Origin: Streptomyces sp. NBC_00459
Lineage (GTDB): Bacteria > Actinomycetota > Actinomycetes > Streptomycetales > Streptomycetaceae
Assembly: GCF_036013955.1 (NCBI RefSeq)
Contig: NZ_CP107903.1
Coordinates: 4,464,001-4,528,000, forward strand
DNA length: 64,000 nt
Direction of reading: 5' to 3'
In this document: in pieces, positions 2,300 through 7,060 of the stretch
How positions within the stretch are numbered: the first letter of the stretch is position 1
How the letters are laid out: the number at the start of each line of letters is the position of its first letter
The notes under the pieces: model-generated
Databases searched by the model: none
What the model saw: only the letters and a program-made list of their open reading frames with translations
What the model was told of the DNA's origin: nothing
Translations under genes and position numbers: made by a program

Positions 2300-2581
2300 T
2301 TATGACTGAATTGCGCCCGTCGTCGCAGCAGCGGGGAAGACTCATTCAAGCCAGGCAATGCGAAGGCAAAGTGACCCCAAAGGGGCTTCTCCGCAGGTCC
2401 GACCGCAGGGACGGACGTGAGCCCGCTCTCCCTGTTGGCCAATTCCATGACGGCCGAGCAGTCCACATGGTGGTCAAGTGATCGATTTGAAGATAGTGTG
2501 CAGGCGTGCCGGGCACTCGAAGACCGAGTGGCCAAGCATCATCGGATTCCCCATTGACCGTGAGGAATCCGGAAGAAGTTC

Positions 2582-2724
2582 TGTAATCGGGGGAAAGAAG
2601 TCCGGGGGGACCTTTCGGTTTCCACGCCTGTGCAGGTCGCCCACATGGGCTCCGCCCCCTTGCGACGACGCAAGGCAAGGTGTAATTCGAATGAATCGCA
2701 ATACTCTGCGAATGGCGGCGGTTT
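2582..2724 (+). repeat. Direct repeat copy A (leader plus first codons of the secreted-protein gene)
   Basis: This block recurs imperfectly at 3574-3709. Shared landmarks are TCGGGGGAA, CCTTTCGGTTTCCACGCCTG, CCCCCTTGCGA-GACGCAA and ATGAA-CG. It covers the upstream leader and roughly the first ten codons of the gene at 2691. The strongest conservation is in the non-coding part, so it probably carries promoter or leader signals. Confidence 0.7.
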
Positions 2725-3119
2725 CGGCCGTCACCGCCGTCACTCTCGGCGGGGCCGCCGGCCTGGCCCAGGCCTCCGAGGCCCGTGCAGCCACGCCTCA
2801 GACCGTCTCGGTCACGCAGCAGGTCGAGGCCCAGCAGGCCGCACGCAGCCTGCTGGCGAGCCCGCTGGCAGTCGACCTCACGGCCGCCGAGCGGACCGCG
2901 CTGAACGCGATTGCCAGTGGTGAGCGCGCGGAGACCCGCATCAGCTGGAGCGCCATCAGGGCCGCCTTCAGCAGGGTCGCCGGCTTCGCCAGGGCCATCG
3001 CGGGCACGTACACGAAGTTCAAGGAGTGGCACGACGCCCTGTCCTGGTGGCAGAAGGCCCCGCTGAGGGCCATCACCCCGGGTCTGACGCTCCTTGACAT
3101 CTACAACGCCCTCCACTGA
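2691..3119 (+). CDS. Small secreted protein with amphipathic C-terminal half
   Basis: 142 aa. The start ATG is the one at the conserved position of the duplicated leader, with AAGG about 9 bases upstream. Residues 1-34 form a signal peptide (MNRNT..., hydrophobic core, ASEARAA cleavage region). The mature part is Gln/Ala-rich, then predicted helical with a Trp-rich stretch (KEWHDALSWWQKAP) near the end. No known domain is recognised. It heads a cluster with a small membrane protein (3251), a truncated copy of itself (3674) and an ABC exporter (3763-5540), so a secreted bioactive peptide exported or resisted by that transporter is a reasonable guess only. Confidence 0.75.
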   Translation: MNRNTLRMAAVSAVTAVTLGGAAGLAQASEARAATPQTVSVTQQVEAQQAARSLLASPLAVDLTAAERTALNAIASGERAETRISWSAIRAAFSRVAGFARAIAGTYTKFKEWHDALSWWQKAPLRAITPGLTLLDIYNALH

Positions 3120-3187
3120 CGACAGCCGATCAGGGGACTCTTTCACTCGCACTCTCTGACCGAGTGATCTGACCGAGTGAGTGGCGT

Positions 3188-3217
3188 GGGTGGGGTTCGC
3201 CCAGGTGGACCCCACCC
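3188..3217. terminator. Possible hairpin terminator
   Basis: GGGTGGGGT (3188-3196) pairs with ACCCCACCC (3209-3217) across a 12-base loop, 70 bases after the secreted-protein stop. Just upstream (about 3157-3180) CTGACCGAGTGA-like sequence is repeated twice. Confidence 0.45.
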
Positions 3218-3250
3218 GCGTGAGGCCAAGGAAACGATGGAGCATCAAGG

Positions 3251-3526
3251 ATGACCGACAGTAAGCCCCCCCGGGCCATCACCGAAGGCGCGTGGGCGCT
3301 GCCCCTTCTGACTCTCGCGCCATTGGCCGCCATCAGGCTCCTCGCGGACCCTTCCACGCCATGGCTCACCATTTCCTGGGGGATATTTACTCTGTCTGTC
3401 CTCTTGGTGGCCATTGGATGGACGACGGTGTTCCGTCGCGGAATGCGCGGGTCCGCAGCATGGGGCACGTGCATTCTTGTGCGCGTCGTTCTGGTCTGGC
3501 AGCTCATTTCTCTCGTGCGGCAATAG
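3251..3526 (+). CDS. Small integral membrane protein
   Basis: 91 aa starting at ATG 3251, preceded by GGAG and AAGG within 15 bases. Hydropathy suggests three membrane-spanning stretches: about 14-32, 39-59 and 70-88. No family recognised. Placed between the secreted-protein gene and the ABC exporter and on the same strand, it could be an accessory or immunity-type protein of that cluster; this rests on position alone. Confidence 0.6.
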   Translation: MTDSKPPRAITEGAWALPLLTLAPLAAIRLLADPSTPWLTISWGIFTLSVLLVAIGWTTVFRRGMRGSAAWGTCILVRVVLVWQLISLVRQ

Positions 3527-3573
3527 GCCAGGACCGGCACAATCGCGCACTTTCGCCACACAGCCAAAGAAGG

Positions 3574-3709
3574 TGTATCGGGGGAAGAAGCCCGGAGGGC
3601 CTTTCGGTTTCCACGCCTGTTCAGGCTCTCGTGCGGACTCCCTCCCCCTTGCGATGACGCAATAGAAGCGTACATGAACCGAAGCAATCTGAGTACGGCT
3701 GCTTTTTTT
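3574..3709 (+). repeat. Direct repeat copy B (truncated duplicate leader)
   Basis: Imperfect copy of 2582-2724. It keeps the TCGGGGGAA, CCTTTCGGTTTCCACGCCTG and CCCTTGCGATGACGCAA blocks and the first codons of the secreted-protein gene, then diverges in a run of seven T residues around 3703-3709. Confidence 0.7.
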
Positions 3710-3766
3710 GGTCAAGGCTCCACCGACCGGCCGGTTGGCCGACCGTTTGAAGGATTCACGCAGTGA
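3674..3766 (+). pseudogene. Truncated paralogue of the 2691 secreted protein, translationally linked to the ABC transporter
   Basis: A 30-codon reading frame starts MNRSNLSTAAFFGQG, aligning with MNRNTLRMAAVS of the full gene for about ten residues and then losing all similarity, including the signal-peptide core. Its stop TGA (3764-3766) overlaps the GTG start of the ABC ATPase (3763) in a GTGA junction. It may be a remnant after duplication and deletion, or may now serve as a short translated leader that couples ribosomes into the transporter gene. Confidence 0.55.
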
Positions 3767-4677
3767 AGAAGGGTGACGCACTCGTCGAGGCCAAGAGCCT
3801 CGGTCTTTCCTTCGGGTCCAAACGGGTCGTGGATGACGTCTCGCTGACCCTGCGCGCCGGTGAGGTGACCGGCTTCGTCGGAGCCAACGGAGCGGGCAAG
3901 ACGACGACGATCCAGCTCATGCTGGGCCTCTTGCGGGGCGAAGGGCAAACCCTCTTCCTCGGCAGACCGCTGCACGAGTGGGGCGCACCCGGGACTGTCG
4001 TCGGCGCGGTACTGGGAGGTGTTGCGGGCCATCCCCAGCACCGCCTGCGCGCACATCTGCGCATGGTGGCCGCCGGATCAGCGGTGCCGGATGAACGCGT
4101 CGACGAGTTGCTGGAGACTGTCGGACTGGCCGATGCCGCCCGGCTGAAGCTGTCCGAACTGTCCCTGGGTATGGCCCAGCGCGCGGGCATCGCGCAGGCA
4201 CTGCTGGGTGATCCGCCCGTGCTGGTTCTCGACGAGCCCGCGAACGGACTCGATCCCCATTCGATCCGCTGGCTGCGGGAGTTCCTGCGTGATCAGGCGG
4301 CGCAGGGCCGGGCGGTGCTGGTGTCCAGTCACCTTCTCGGGGAGATGGAACAGTTGGCCGATCAGGCGGTGGTGCTGAGCCTTGGCCGGGTCGTGGCAGC
4401 CGTGCCGATGACCGAGGTGCTGGAACGGGCCGCCGGCCAACGTGTGGTGATCATAGAGGCGCCAGAACTGCCCGCACTGACCCGGCTGCTGGCAGAGCAC
4501 GGCGGGCGTCTCTCTCCCACCGGCGGACAGGGCGCGACCGTCACGGGGCTGGACCGTGTGCAGATCGGCACGCTCGCCATGAAAGCCGGGGTTCCGCTGT
4601 ACTGGCTGCAAGAGGAAAAGCCATCTCTGGAGGACTTCTATCTGGGCGTAGCGGAAGAGGAGTTCAGGATCTCGTGA
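3763..4677 (+). CDS. ABC transporter ATP-binding protein (ABC-2 exporter type)
   Basis: 304 aa. Walker A GANGAGKTT near residues 46-54, signature LSLGMAQR around residue 131, Walker B VLVLDEPANGLD about 147-158, then the H-loop SSH. The C-terminal hundred residues match the extra domain of drug/peptide-export ATPases of the CcmA/DrrA group. The GTG start overlaps the truncated leader ORF, and the 3' end overlaps the permease start at 4674, so the two are coupled. It powers the 4674 permease at the inner face of the membrane; substrate unknown, perhaps the small secreted peptide upstream. Confidence 0.9.
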   Translation: MKKGDALVEAKSLGLSFGSKRVVDDVSLTLRAGEVTGFVGANGAGKTTTIQLMLGLLRGEGQTLFLGRPLHEWGAPGTVVGAVLGGVAGHPQHRLRAHLRMVAAGSAVPDERVDELLETVGLADAARLKLSELSLGMAQRAGIAQALLGDPPVLVLDEPANGLDPHSIRWLREFLRDQAAQGRAVLVSSHLLGEMEQLADQAVVLSLGRVVAAVPMTEVLERAAGQRVVIIEAPELPALTRLLAEHGGRLSPTGGQGATVTGLDRVQIGTLAMKAGVPLYWLQEEKPSLEDFYLGVAEEEFRIS

Positions 4678-5540
4678 CATCTGTCGTACTGAAGGCTCCG
4701 GTTGTCGTCCGGCCCGTTGAAGCGTTTCGCAGGGCATGCCGGTATGAATGGCGGCATCTGACCGAATTGCGCTCGACATGGATCCTGCTCGGCGTGGTGG
4801 CGTTCCTGAGTCTGCTGACCGGGATCACGGTCCTGCTCGACCTGCGCGGACAAAACACGGTCAGCTCCGCGACCGTGGCGGACACGATCGCGTGGACCCC
4901 GCTGGCGACGCAGATCCCGGCCCTGTGCTTCTTCGTGCTGGTGCTGGGTACCGGGCCGGTCTCGACCGACCTGTTGTCGGGCGCCGGACGGACAACCTGG
5001 CTGACTGTGAACGGGCGTCGCACCGCATATGCGGCAAAGTGCGCGGTCGGCTTCACCGTTGGCTCCGGTGTGGCCGCCATCAGCGCACTGACGGGAGCGC
5101 TCTCCTGCGCGGTGACCCTGGCGGTGGCCGGTGCCCCCCAGCCGGCATGGACAGAGATCCTCGCGCCTGCCGCACGGTTCGTCGGGTGGATGGGGTGCTG
5201 GGCGCTGCTCTGCATGGCCCTGGTCGCAGTGCTGCGAAGCCGTATCGCCTCTGTCCTGTTCCTGGTCCTGTGGCCACTTCTCGGTGAGCGCCTCACCGGC
5301 GCACTGCTCGGATACGTCCCGGGGCTGGAGAGCGTGAAGGACTGGCTGCCGTTCGCGGCTGGGCGAGCGATGCTCACCGATCTGTCGACCGTCTCGGGCG
5401 AGGACAAGGCCTTTGCGCAAGCACTGGTCGGCTCCCACCTGTCCACGCCGGTCGCTGTAGCCGTGTTCTTCCTGTATACGGCGGCCCTTACGGCTGCGGG
5501 GCTGTGGGCGTACTGCCGGAGAGACGCCCGAGCGGGCTGA
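4674..5540 (+). CDS. ABC-2 type transporter permease
   Basis: 288 aa starting at a GTG that overlaps the ATPase stop (GTGA). Six hydrophobic segments are visible: near residues 37-57, 80-98, 125-148, 167-190, 193-212 and 260-280. This is the usual six-helix ABC-2 permease pattern. It forms the membrane channel with the 3763 ATPase. The next gene is on the opposite strand. Confidence 0.85.
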   Translation: MTSVVLKAPVVVRPVEAFRRACRYEWRHLTELRSTWILLGVVAFLSLLTGITVLLDLRGQNTVSSATVADTIAWTPLATQIPALCFFVLVLGTGPVSTDLLSGAGRTTWLTVNGRRTAYAAKCAVGFTVGSGVAAISALTGALSCAVTLAVAGAPQPAWTEILAPAARFVGWMGCWALLCMALVAVLRSRIASVLFLVLWPLLGERLTGALLGYVPGLESVKDWLPFAAGRAMLTDLSTVSGEDKAFAQALVGSHLSTPVAVAVFFLYTAALTAAGLWAYCRRDARAG

Positions 5541-5667: not shown

Positions 5668-6017
5668 TTACTCGGTGTCTTTGGGATGCCTGGTCGATGC
5701 GTAGACGAGGACGACAGTCGAGGCCTCCGGGCTGACCAGGTATCGCACCCTGCCGCCACTCGTGATCTCGTACTCCCACTGTTCCAGACGGAGCCCTTCC
5801 ATTCCCTGGTGGCGTGCCTGCCGCGAAGCTGGTGCTGACGGTTCCAGTTGGCACGCGACAGCGGGTCCGTGCGAAGGGCTTCCAGGCAGCGATGCGCGTT
5901 CGGCAACGCCACCCGACACAACTCCTCCCAACCGGTCGCGGCCTCCGTCGTTCCGTGGACGACGTTCCAGCCGCTCAGCGGAGGGACGCTGACCCGGTCG
6001 CCTTTCTTCGGGCTCAC
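5668..6017 (-). pseudogene. Frameshifted RelE/HigB-like toxin remnant
   Basis: Reading from ATG 6017, MSPKKGDRVSVPP...WEELCRVALPN...NRQHQLRGRHATREWKG resembles a streptomycete RelE/HigB-type family. The family's expected C-terminal half (LEQWEYEITSGGRVRYLV...VYASTRHPKDTE) continues in a different frame and ends at 5668. From ATG to that stop is 350 bases, one short of whole codons, so a single-base indel near 5795-5803 would explain it. Its start overlaps the stop of the upstream partner at 6014, as in TA operons. Either the toxin is dead or the base call is wrong. Confidence 0.55.
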
Positions 6018-6628: not shown

Positions 6629-7060
6629 GTGCCCACAGCTACGAAGAGCAGATTCGGTCTGGCCCTGCTCGCCACCGGTGCCGTTGTCGCCGGCACACTC
6701 GCGCTCGCGCCGCCGGCAGGCGCCGCAGGCGGCTCGTGCTCCGGGCCAGGACCGACGGTAAACGGATACGCGACGGTCTACTGCGACACCTACGTCACTG
6801 CCAGTGTCACCCAGGGCAGCACTCCCTACGAGGGCGACTCCCGTGAGGTCGGCATCCTCTACGCGGGCCACAACTGGTTCGTGTGCCAGATCAAGGGCCG
6901 GGAGAACCCGGTGATCCAGGGCGCCCACAACAACTGGTGGCTGGAGACCCTGGCCGATGTCGTCACGCGTCCCGGCGCCTCCGGGTGGGGCTCCTTCCCC
7001 GCCACCGCCGTGGTCCAGGGCGGCGACTGGGAGCCCGTCCCCGGCGTGCCCATCTGCTGA
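6629..7060 (+). CDS. Small secreted protein of unknown function
   Basis: 143 aa from GTG 6629, preceded by GAGAGGAG. Signal peptide residues 1-33 ending PPAGAAG. The mature protein of about 110 aa has four cysteines (GSCSGP, YCDTY, FVCQIKG and the terminal IC), probably two disulphides, and a compact aromatic-rich core (HNWFVCQ, HNNWWLE). It resembles small secreted beta-rich proteins of streptomycetes but I do not recognise a family. It is monocistronic, with a terminator at 7111-7133. Confidence 0.75.
   Translation: MPTATKSRFGLALLATGAVVAGTLALAPPAGAAGGSCSGPGPTVNGYATVYCDTYVTASVTQGSTPYEGDSREVGILYAGHNWFVCQIKGRENPVIQGAHNNWWLETLADVVTRPGASGWGSFPATAVVQGGDWEPVPGVPIC

Follow-up and report, generated by a model that had tools for sequence, protein, structure and literature searches.

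A duplicated structured RNA leader in a candidate bacteriocin-like operon of Streptomyces

In Streptomyces sp. NBC_00459, a structured RNA leader is present in two copies within one operon. The first copy, leader A, ends at the start codon of a secreted peptide gene, and the second, leader B, lies before the genes of an ABC exporter. The homology of the copies, their two-copy arrangement, the covariation of their helices, the selective conservation of leader B and the lack of a candidate promoter element before it are all computed results. The best explanation is probably, though by no means securely, that the leaders belong to a new family of cis-acting RNAs in a Sec-type bacteriocin-like operon, and that their duplication would have brought the exporter under the same post-transcriptional control as the peptide.

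The window, the whole stretch of DNA analysed, is 64,000 nt long and covers positions 4,464,001 to 4,528,000 of the forward strand of NZ_CP107903.1 (genome size 9.76 Mb). L-numbers denote the loci compared (L046, L047, L013 and so on) and G-numbers denote genomes (G443, G317 = L084 and so on). The operon order in the window is peptide, 91-aa membrane protein, leader B, ABC ATPase, ABC permease, and leader B lies approximately 50 nt downstream of the membrane-protein gene. The features are as follows, in window coordinates.

2478-2486, plus strand: conserved DNA element GTGATCGAT upstream of leader A, a candidate promoter or operator part
2543-2571, plus strand: P0 hairpin with a loop around TTGACC; its arms vary across species yet stay complementary
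2585-2693, plus strand: leader A, structured RNA (P1, P2, apical core, P4) with covariation; 92.8 bits with model R1; ends at the peptide start codon
2617-2628, plus strand: apical core GGUUUCCACGCC of leader A, columns invariant or nearly invariant
2658-2675, plus strand: P4 of leader A, hairpin CCUUGCG-ACGA-CGCAAGG, adjoining the ribosome-binding region
2691-3119, plus strand: secreted peptide gene, 142 aa, with a signal-peptide-like N-terminus and a C-terminal 60-aa helical domain
3251-3526, plus strand: 91-aa membrane protein with three hydrophobic segments, a candidate immunity protein
3576-3676, plus strand: leader B, the second copy of the structured RNA; 102.6 bits with R1; mean identity 77% against 32-43% in its flanks
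3606-3617, plus strand: apical core GGUUUCCACGCC of leader B, identical to that of leader A
3674-3766, plus strand: 30-codon frame 3' of leader B, not conserved among relatives
3703-3709, plus strand: run of seven T (T7); L046 has five T and then C at the same place
3749-3754, plus strand: GAAGGA, the ATPase's own candidate ribosome-binding site, which also precedes the ATPase in L046, L013, L015 and L083
3763-4677, plus strand: ABC ATPase, 304 aa, GTG start (PF00005, 3.2e-25)
4674-5540, plus strand: ABC permease, 288 aa, with several hydrophobic segments (PF12679 at 0.0011, below cutoff)

Two copies of one structured leader

Leaders A and B are 82% identical over 89 nt (E 4e-16). Their common blocks of 35 nt (89%) and 22 nt (91%) share a single offset of 989 nt, and the first ten or so codons are recognisably similar (MNRNTLRMAA and MNRSNLSTAA). 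The first-pass annotation, which had described a duplicated leader carrying the start of the gene at 2691, is borne out by this alignment. There is no third copy in this genome. A 20-nt core, allowing up to 3 mismatches, has two sites in the 9.76 Mb, both at this locus, and covariance model R1, at E up to 10, matches these two places alone. With two genomic sites the blocks are not the widespread unrelated repeat that would have told against the annotation, and the likeness of A and B is neither a dispersed repeat nor chance. The complement of the 20-nt core, as a long trans antisense RNA would carry it, has no site with 3 or fewer mismatches in the same genome. In the leader tree, the B copies form one group (local support 0.839) apart from the A copies, with low support along the backbone. 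Because of this grouping, the duplication probably predates the species.

The leaders of the relatives fold into a long hairpin formed by P1 (GGGGGA.GAAGUCC / GGGCUUC.UCCCCC) and P2, with the apex GG-UUUCCACG-CC, followed by the second small hairpin, P4. The apical motif GUUUCCACGCC on the long hairpin is nearly invariant, and at copy A, P4 sits at the ribosome site. In alignment A3 (MAFFT, 14 leader sequences), 90% of cells are paired and 7 of 28 pairs are changed on both sides, compared with 3.2 ± 1.2 in shuffled alignments (1 of 500 shuffles is as high). Further pair types in A3 are not above the shuffles (17 versus 17.8). In alignment A6, a model-fitted alignment of 23 sequences that is biased towards the structure, both-sided changes occur in 17 of 28 pairs and 44 cells, compared with 6.8 ± 1.7 pairs and 9.8 ± 2.5 cells in shuffles. 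When the partners are slid by 1-3 columns as a control, at most 6 pairs and 8 cells are changed. P4 corresponds to helix 5 of this model-fitted alignment (columns 140-144/159-163), in which 97.3% of cells are paired. The helices of the structured RNA duplicated in leaders A and B covary, and like riboswitch-type elements the leaders have the form of a conserved structured 5' RNA.

The stems in the window are weaker than those of the relatives. When the 3' arm is shuffled, z is -1.3 and -1.4 for the two window copies and -2.3 to -7.4 for 15 of 16 relatives' leaders (L013_B has -1.7). Leader A of the window, taken whole, folds no better than shuffled sequences (z -0.34). Since the stems of both copies are weak, the RNA element may be in decay in this strain. 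The calculated accessibility of the ribosome site at A is uneven across type-1 leaders (0.01-0.97 unpaired), and its inclusion in an alternative helix is plausible there though uneven; at B, a GG-containing ribosome sequence is absent in six of seven genomes. A pairing between the apical loop and the ribosome site, judged by eye, fails in type-2 leaders and was set aside. On inspection, leader B has no intrinsic terminator in the form of a GC hairpin with a T run directly behind it. The sequence TTGCGATGACGC lies 3' of the P1 arm at leader B in the window, and inspection finds close variants in six genomes.

Rfam 15 has no family matching at its gathering score, either in the window or in the leaders of L016, L017 and L048-L053. 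In permissive Rfam scans, the window has one 6-nt edge overlap with a minus-strand Ms1 match (12.9 bits against 162), the type-2 leader of L050 has no match, and three microRNA models overlap the L083 leaders with 18.5-21.7 bits, their cutoffs being 97-268. In kind, the element belongs with the cis-acting leader RNAs, here of a bacteriocin-like operon. The family of the RNA, that of the peptide and the placing of a leader copy mid-operon appear to be new, and a search of open-licence papers found none on this leader, peptide and exporter system.

Conservation of leader B and its surroundings

Eight Streptomyces genomes carry both leaders: the window, L046, L047, L013, L014, L015, L083 and G443. 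In seven of these, the full order of peptide, membrane protein, copy B, ABC ATPase and ABC permease is present. G443 was located later, through a peptide profile search; its leaders score 76.4 and 71.1 bits, the peptide and membrane protein are present, and no ABC match occurs in the 3 kb fetched beyond leader B. A 19-codon frame lies 3' of leader B in G443 (L103, about 3031-3450 of the reverse complement).

Between seven genomes, mean identity is 77% for leader B and 83% for leader A. The 100 nt upstream of leader B have 32% identity, and the spacer to the ATPase has 43% among six genomes, with L014 omitted because its ATPase frame starts at the leader-B codon itself. Over their first 300 nt, the genes of the peptide and the ATPase likewise have a mean identity of 77%. 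Given the conservation of leader B between such divergent flanks, the RNA seems to be what is selected. G317 encodes the peptide together with the ABC pair (73% and 71% identity) and a 90-aa hydrophobic protein that is unrelated; a single leader was identified there, and leader B was not detected. Its ATPase N-terminus, VPKGDVLVEA, aligns with VKKGDALVEA of the window read from GTG 3763, and leader B was therefore probably inserted ahead of a pre-existing ATPase start. Permease relatives of at least 68% identity are found in 2 of 101 (the own genome and G083), and 10 further matches are weak (25-33%).

Because the same leader stands before both genes and both copies are kept in seven other genomes, shared control of the peptide and the exporter is plausible. 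To this extent the co-regulation proposed in the first-pass annotation stands; sharing at the promoter level does not. The element GTGATCG[AT] stands 192-227 nt ahead of the peptide start in seven of the eight two-copy genomes and before B in none of the eight, so that the 'same leader signals' of that proposal do not include a promoter. In all eight, a hairpin centred on TGACC or CGACC lies 123-136 nt upstream of the peptide start (z -1.6 to -4.7). Similar segments at the single-copy loci L084, L085, L016 and L017 are weaker (z -0.1 to -1.8), and the bare TGACC/CGACC word occurs before B in one of the eight. The GTGATCGAT element before A is probably transcriptional. As the candidate promoter signals lie before A and not before B, shared control is most likely exerted on RNA and not on transcription initiation.

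The 30-codon frame at 3674-3766 is present as annotated, with its TGA (3764-3766) overlapping the GTG (3763-3765) of the ATPase, and the run of seven T lies within it at 3703-3709. Among relatives the frame does not behave as a conserved coupling device. In four of the seven exporter-bearing genomes (L046, L047, L014 and L015), the codon 3' of leader B shares the reading frame of the ATPase. The ATG is lost in two: in L013 the codon is CTG, with a stop 12 codons later, and in L083 it is CCG. A short ATG frame with the GTGA overlap is found in the window only. A GG-containing ribosome sequence lies beside the leader-B codon only in L014 (GGAG); the window, L046, L047 and L015 have only AGAA. 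The slippage envisaged at T7 yields no fusion in any frame, since TGA 3748-3750 interrupts the ATPase frame before GTG 3763 is reached, and translation past T7 in the third frame would end just inside the ATPase gene (all three frames were read). In L046, TTTTTC stands in place of T7 and the frame is open without slippage.

Distribution of the leader and products of the operon

Model R1 has matches in 20 of 392 Streptomyces genomes (E <= 0.01), comprising 10 with full-length sites of at least 70 bits, 4 with weaker full-length sites and 6 with partial or palindromic sites. The matches in G137, G064, G139, G280 and G296 (26.8 bits) cover model positions 21-57 only and were set aside, as was that in G127, a palindrome taken as chance. 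Apart from the R1 matches, L018/G152 was dropped as a chance match inside a TetR-like gene. The five partial R1 matches (L071-L075) consist of one and the same GC hairpin; its apical sequence, CUUCGCUUUCCACGGCUG, resembles the core with its closing pair swapped, and the hairpin is possibly a terminator or chance.

Model R2 has 23 sites in 17 of 392 Streptomyces genomes (E <= 0.02). Twenty-one of these end within 3 nt of a start codon, a count that is partly built in since the start codon is included in the model; the fit holds outside the seed in G213, G084 and G443, the sole independent tests. Sixteen sites precede secreted-protein frames (that of G084 is only 32 aa) and six are leader B copies. 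No recognised metabolic gene lies downstream of any of the 23. One site, in G349 (L088, minus strand, leader 5698-5790), precedes a peptide gene without a signal sequence, and after this gene comes one for a protein related to the 91-aa membrane protein (43% identity). In G284 (L087, leader 2867-2974) it is a 315-aa secreted protein that the leader precedes, and in G263 a 176-aa one, both unlike the peptide by eye. The G284 protein seems unrelated to the peptide, so the leader is not confined to a single protein family.

Leaders of a second type, alike in architecture, are found at the peptides of L048-L053. The type-2 leaders of L048-L052 have a related loop, GUGUCCAAGCC, and that of L053 is more divergent. 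When run without filters on 62 kb, R2 recovers L048-L051 at E 2e-5 to 4e-4; on whole genomes it finds L052 and L053. At L054 it scores 26.2 bits, compared with 21.0 on the opposite strand; at L055 it has no match, and at L056 it has only a chance-level match elsewhere in the locus (E 0.9). Taking the tests together, a leader is present in 14 of the 16 genomes carrying peptide relatives. The Rfam sRNA scr4677 matches near the type-2 leader peptide gene of L048 (5487-5713, minus strand, 55.6 bits). L104 and L105, from other genera of the family, have no R2 leader within 8 kb around each (chance-level E >= 0.2). The C-termini of the L104 and L105 peptide relatives are strongly cationic.

Of 295 Streptomyces genomes, 16 encode a relative of the peptide, counting the own genome. 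The peptide matches no Pfam or NCBIfam family above cutoff. It has a hydrophobic N-terminal segment at residues 8-26 followed by AxA, and A26 and A28 are invariant among 19 sequences. The AlphaFold model of the whole peptide has a pLDDT of 72.6 with a helical mature part, and the C-terminal 60 residues folded alone form five helices at a pLDDT of 94.4. The last 60 residues contain 8 K+R, 3 D+E and 4 W, and the part after residue 28 contains 12 K+R and 9 D+E. A signal peptide and a short cationic helical mature part, the marks of a Sec-dependent bacteriocin, are both predicted in silico, and the peptide is probably a Sec-type secreted, bacteriocin-like (antibacterial) product. Neither the full peptide nor its C-terminal 60 residues has a convincing PDB relative by fold or sequence; the best VIA-align Z is 3.8, and because VIA-align was fed Foldseek's own candidates alone, this negative excludes nothing. 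The peptide is found in no phage record and in four plasmid records, all from Streptomyces and below 60% identity.

The hydrophobic segments of the 91-aa membrane protein span residues 14-32, 37-62 and 68-90, and it has no Pfam match. Its relatives lie beside the peptide at 7 of 17 loci and also at L083, L088 and L103; L050, L084, L085 and L086 have a different small hydrophobic protein 3' of the peptide, as judged by eye. The best NCBIfam match of the ATPase is TIGR03740 (lantibiotic protection ABC), at 149.6 bits, below the curated cutoff of 309.75.

The closest comparisons are with leaderless bacteriocins. The operon of lactolisterin BU, which is aureocin A53-like, encodes the peptide, an ABC ATPase, a permease-like accessory protein and a membrane immunity protein, and the operon described here likewise joins a peptide, ABC genes and a membrane protein (PMC6249370). 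In both, a hairpin lies between the structural and ABC genes; that of lactolisterin BU is a rho-independent terminator (PMC6249370). Control is proposed to be translational in lactolisterin BU, as it is here, with translational coupling in lactolisterin BU only inferred (PMC6249370). Unlike the present peptide, lactolisterin BU is leaderless and has no signal peptide; its gene order differs, and the text available reports no duplication of the peptide leader (PMC6249370). Lacticin Q (lnqBCDEF) is similar in its cationic helical peptide, self-immunity ABC transporter (LnqEF) and accessory proteins, and differs in being leaderless (PMC4155820). Streptomyces is among the carriers of aureocin A53-like peptides of Actinomycetota, and these have a short helical core, as here; their core has a mean length of 55 and no leader, whereas the core described here follows a signal-peptide-like and linker region (PMC11580447). 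No match between the peptide and leaderless bacteriocins was found by sequence or fold (Foldseek, VIA-align and profile searches), an absence that does not amount to exclusion. Membership of the aureocin A53-like leaderless bacteriocins is not claimed, as the N-terminal segment 8-26 and AxA are present here. The likeness to aureocin A53 and lacticin Q is a resemblance in the Trp-containing cationic helical core, the ABC pair and the membrane protein. Tandem or repeated riboswitches also repeat an RNA control element in one regulated region, but the leaders described here lie before different genes approximately 1 kb apart in one operon (PMC12452182).

Proposed control of the peptide and the exporter

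Under post-transcriptional control of both genes, a leader copy with the peptide's first codons would have been placed ahead of the exporter genes at a time when at least eight Streptomyces lineages had yet to split. Afterwards the RNA fold would have been retained, and the ribosome site, start codon and frame copied along with it would have decayed or fused into the ATPase. Each copy would work at the level of the mRNA, and neither as a promoter. The fold at A may gate ribosome access, with P1 and the outer P4 pairs competing for a C run. Formation of P1 would free part of the ribosome site, with which the accessibility calculation is only loosely consistent. This mechanism is not simply transferable to B, because leader B is without a GG-containing ribosome sequence in six of seven genomes. 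At B, the same factor or ligand would most likely determine how stable the exporter segment of the mRNA is, or how it is processed or translated. The peptide and the exporter would then rise together.

The main rival at B, given G443 and the lost start codons, is a 3'-end role for the peptide message. Leader B would serve the peptide-immunity message as a 3' or processing element, halting decay or marking where that message is cleaved from the exporter part, with only a secondary effect on the exporter. Hairpin B is indeed kept where the ATG (2 of 7) and the GG-containing ribosome sequence (6 of 7) are lost, G443 keeps leader B at 71.1 bits with no exporter within 3 kb, and the approximately 50 nt between the membrane-protein gene and leader B in the window suit such an element. 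However, what copy B repeats is a 5' leader, its start codon and first codons included, the L014 ATPase frame starts at the leader-B codon with GGAG before it, and G443 may have lost its exporter recently; a 3'-end role is unlikely on this evidence. That leader B is a decaying, functionless relic would agree with the weakened stems of both window copies and the broken frame. It is made quite improbable by the 77% identity of leader B against flanks of 32-43%, and by the strong stem of a B copy that has no start codon (L083_B, z -7.4).

A metabolite riboswitch of a new class is likewise unlikely. Its apical motif would bind a ligand, and the switch between P1 and P4 would control translation of the peptide and also the exporter. 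The conserved apical motif on variable stems, the ribosome-site hairpin overlapping P1 and the use of the leader before at least two other kinds of secreted protein are consistent with it. Many known riboswitches are located on genes of their ligand's metabolism, but the 23 R2 sites include none in front of a recognised metabolic gene, and a protein-binding hairpin would look identical. The model of the first-pass annotation, in which translation of the 30-codon leader peptide drives the ATPase through coupling at the GTGA overlap, with T7 slippage, retains the overlap and T7 themselves, and GAAGGA before GTG 3763 would favour re-initiation. It is nonetheless very improbable, given a codon in frame in four of seven genomes, the ATG lost in two of seven, only AGAA at ATG 3674 and no fusion by slippage. 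Hardest of all to credit is duplication of a promoter or operator at the DNA level with no RNA element. Upstream blocks are often operators, and GTGATCGAT before A is probably transcriptional, but compensatory pairs extend across long arms, the conserved loop is asymmetric and the candidate promoter element was left out of the duplicated part.

Beyond the favoured post-transcriptional reading, a more specific and tentative proposal is that the leaders form a new cis-regulatory RNA class specific to Streptomyces secreted bacteriocin-like peptides, which would sense a signal through the apical motif. Copied mid-operon in one lineage, a single sensor could set both the toxin and its exporter or self-protection from one transcript. 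If this is true, the leader pair would be an RNA-level device for balancing a toxic peptide. How producers match the dose of a membrane-active peptide to its exporter or self-protection is an open practical question. With an RNA element before both genes and natural variants to hand, the balance between peptide and exporter is testable with reporters. These variants include genomes with both leaders (eight genomes), with the ABC pair and no detected leader B (G317), with the ATG lost (L013 and L083) and with no exporter within 3 kb of leader B (G443). The leader motif also flags secreted peptides that have no Pfam annotation.

Two other small proteins are encoded near the operon. At 6629-7060 of the window there is another small secreted protein with a GTG start and no Pfam or NCBIfam match. 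At approximately 609-914, on the minus strand, there is a small membrane protein with a C-terminus made up almost entirely of Ser, Gly and Cys (repeated SSCGG).
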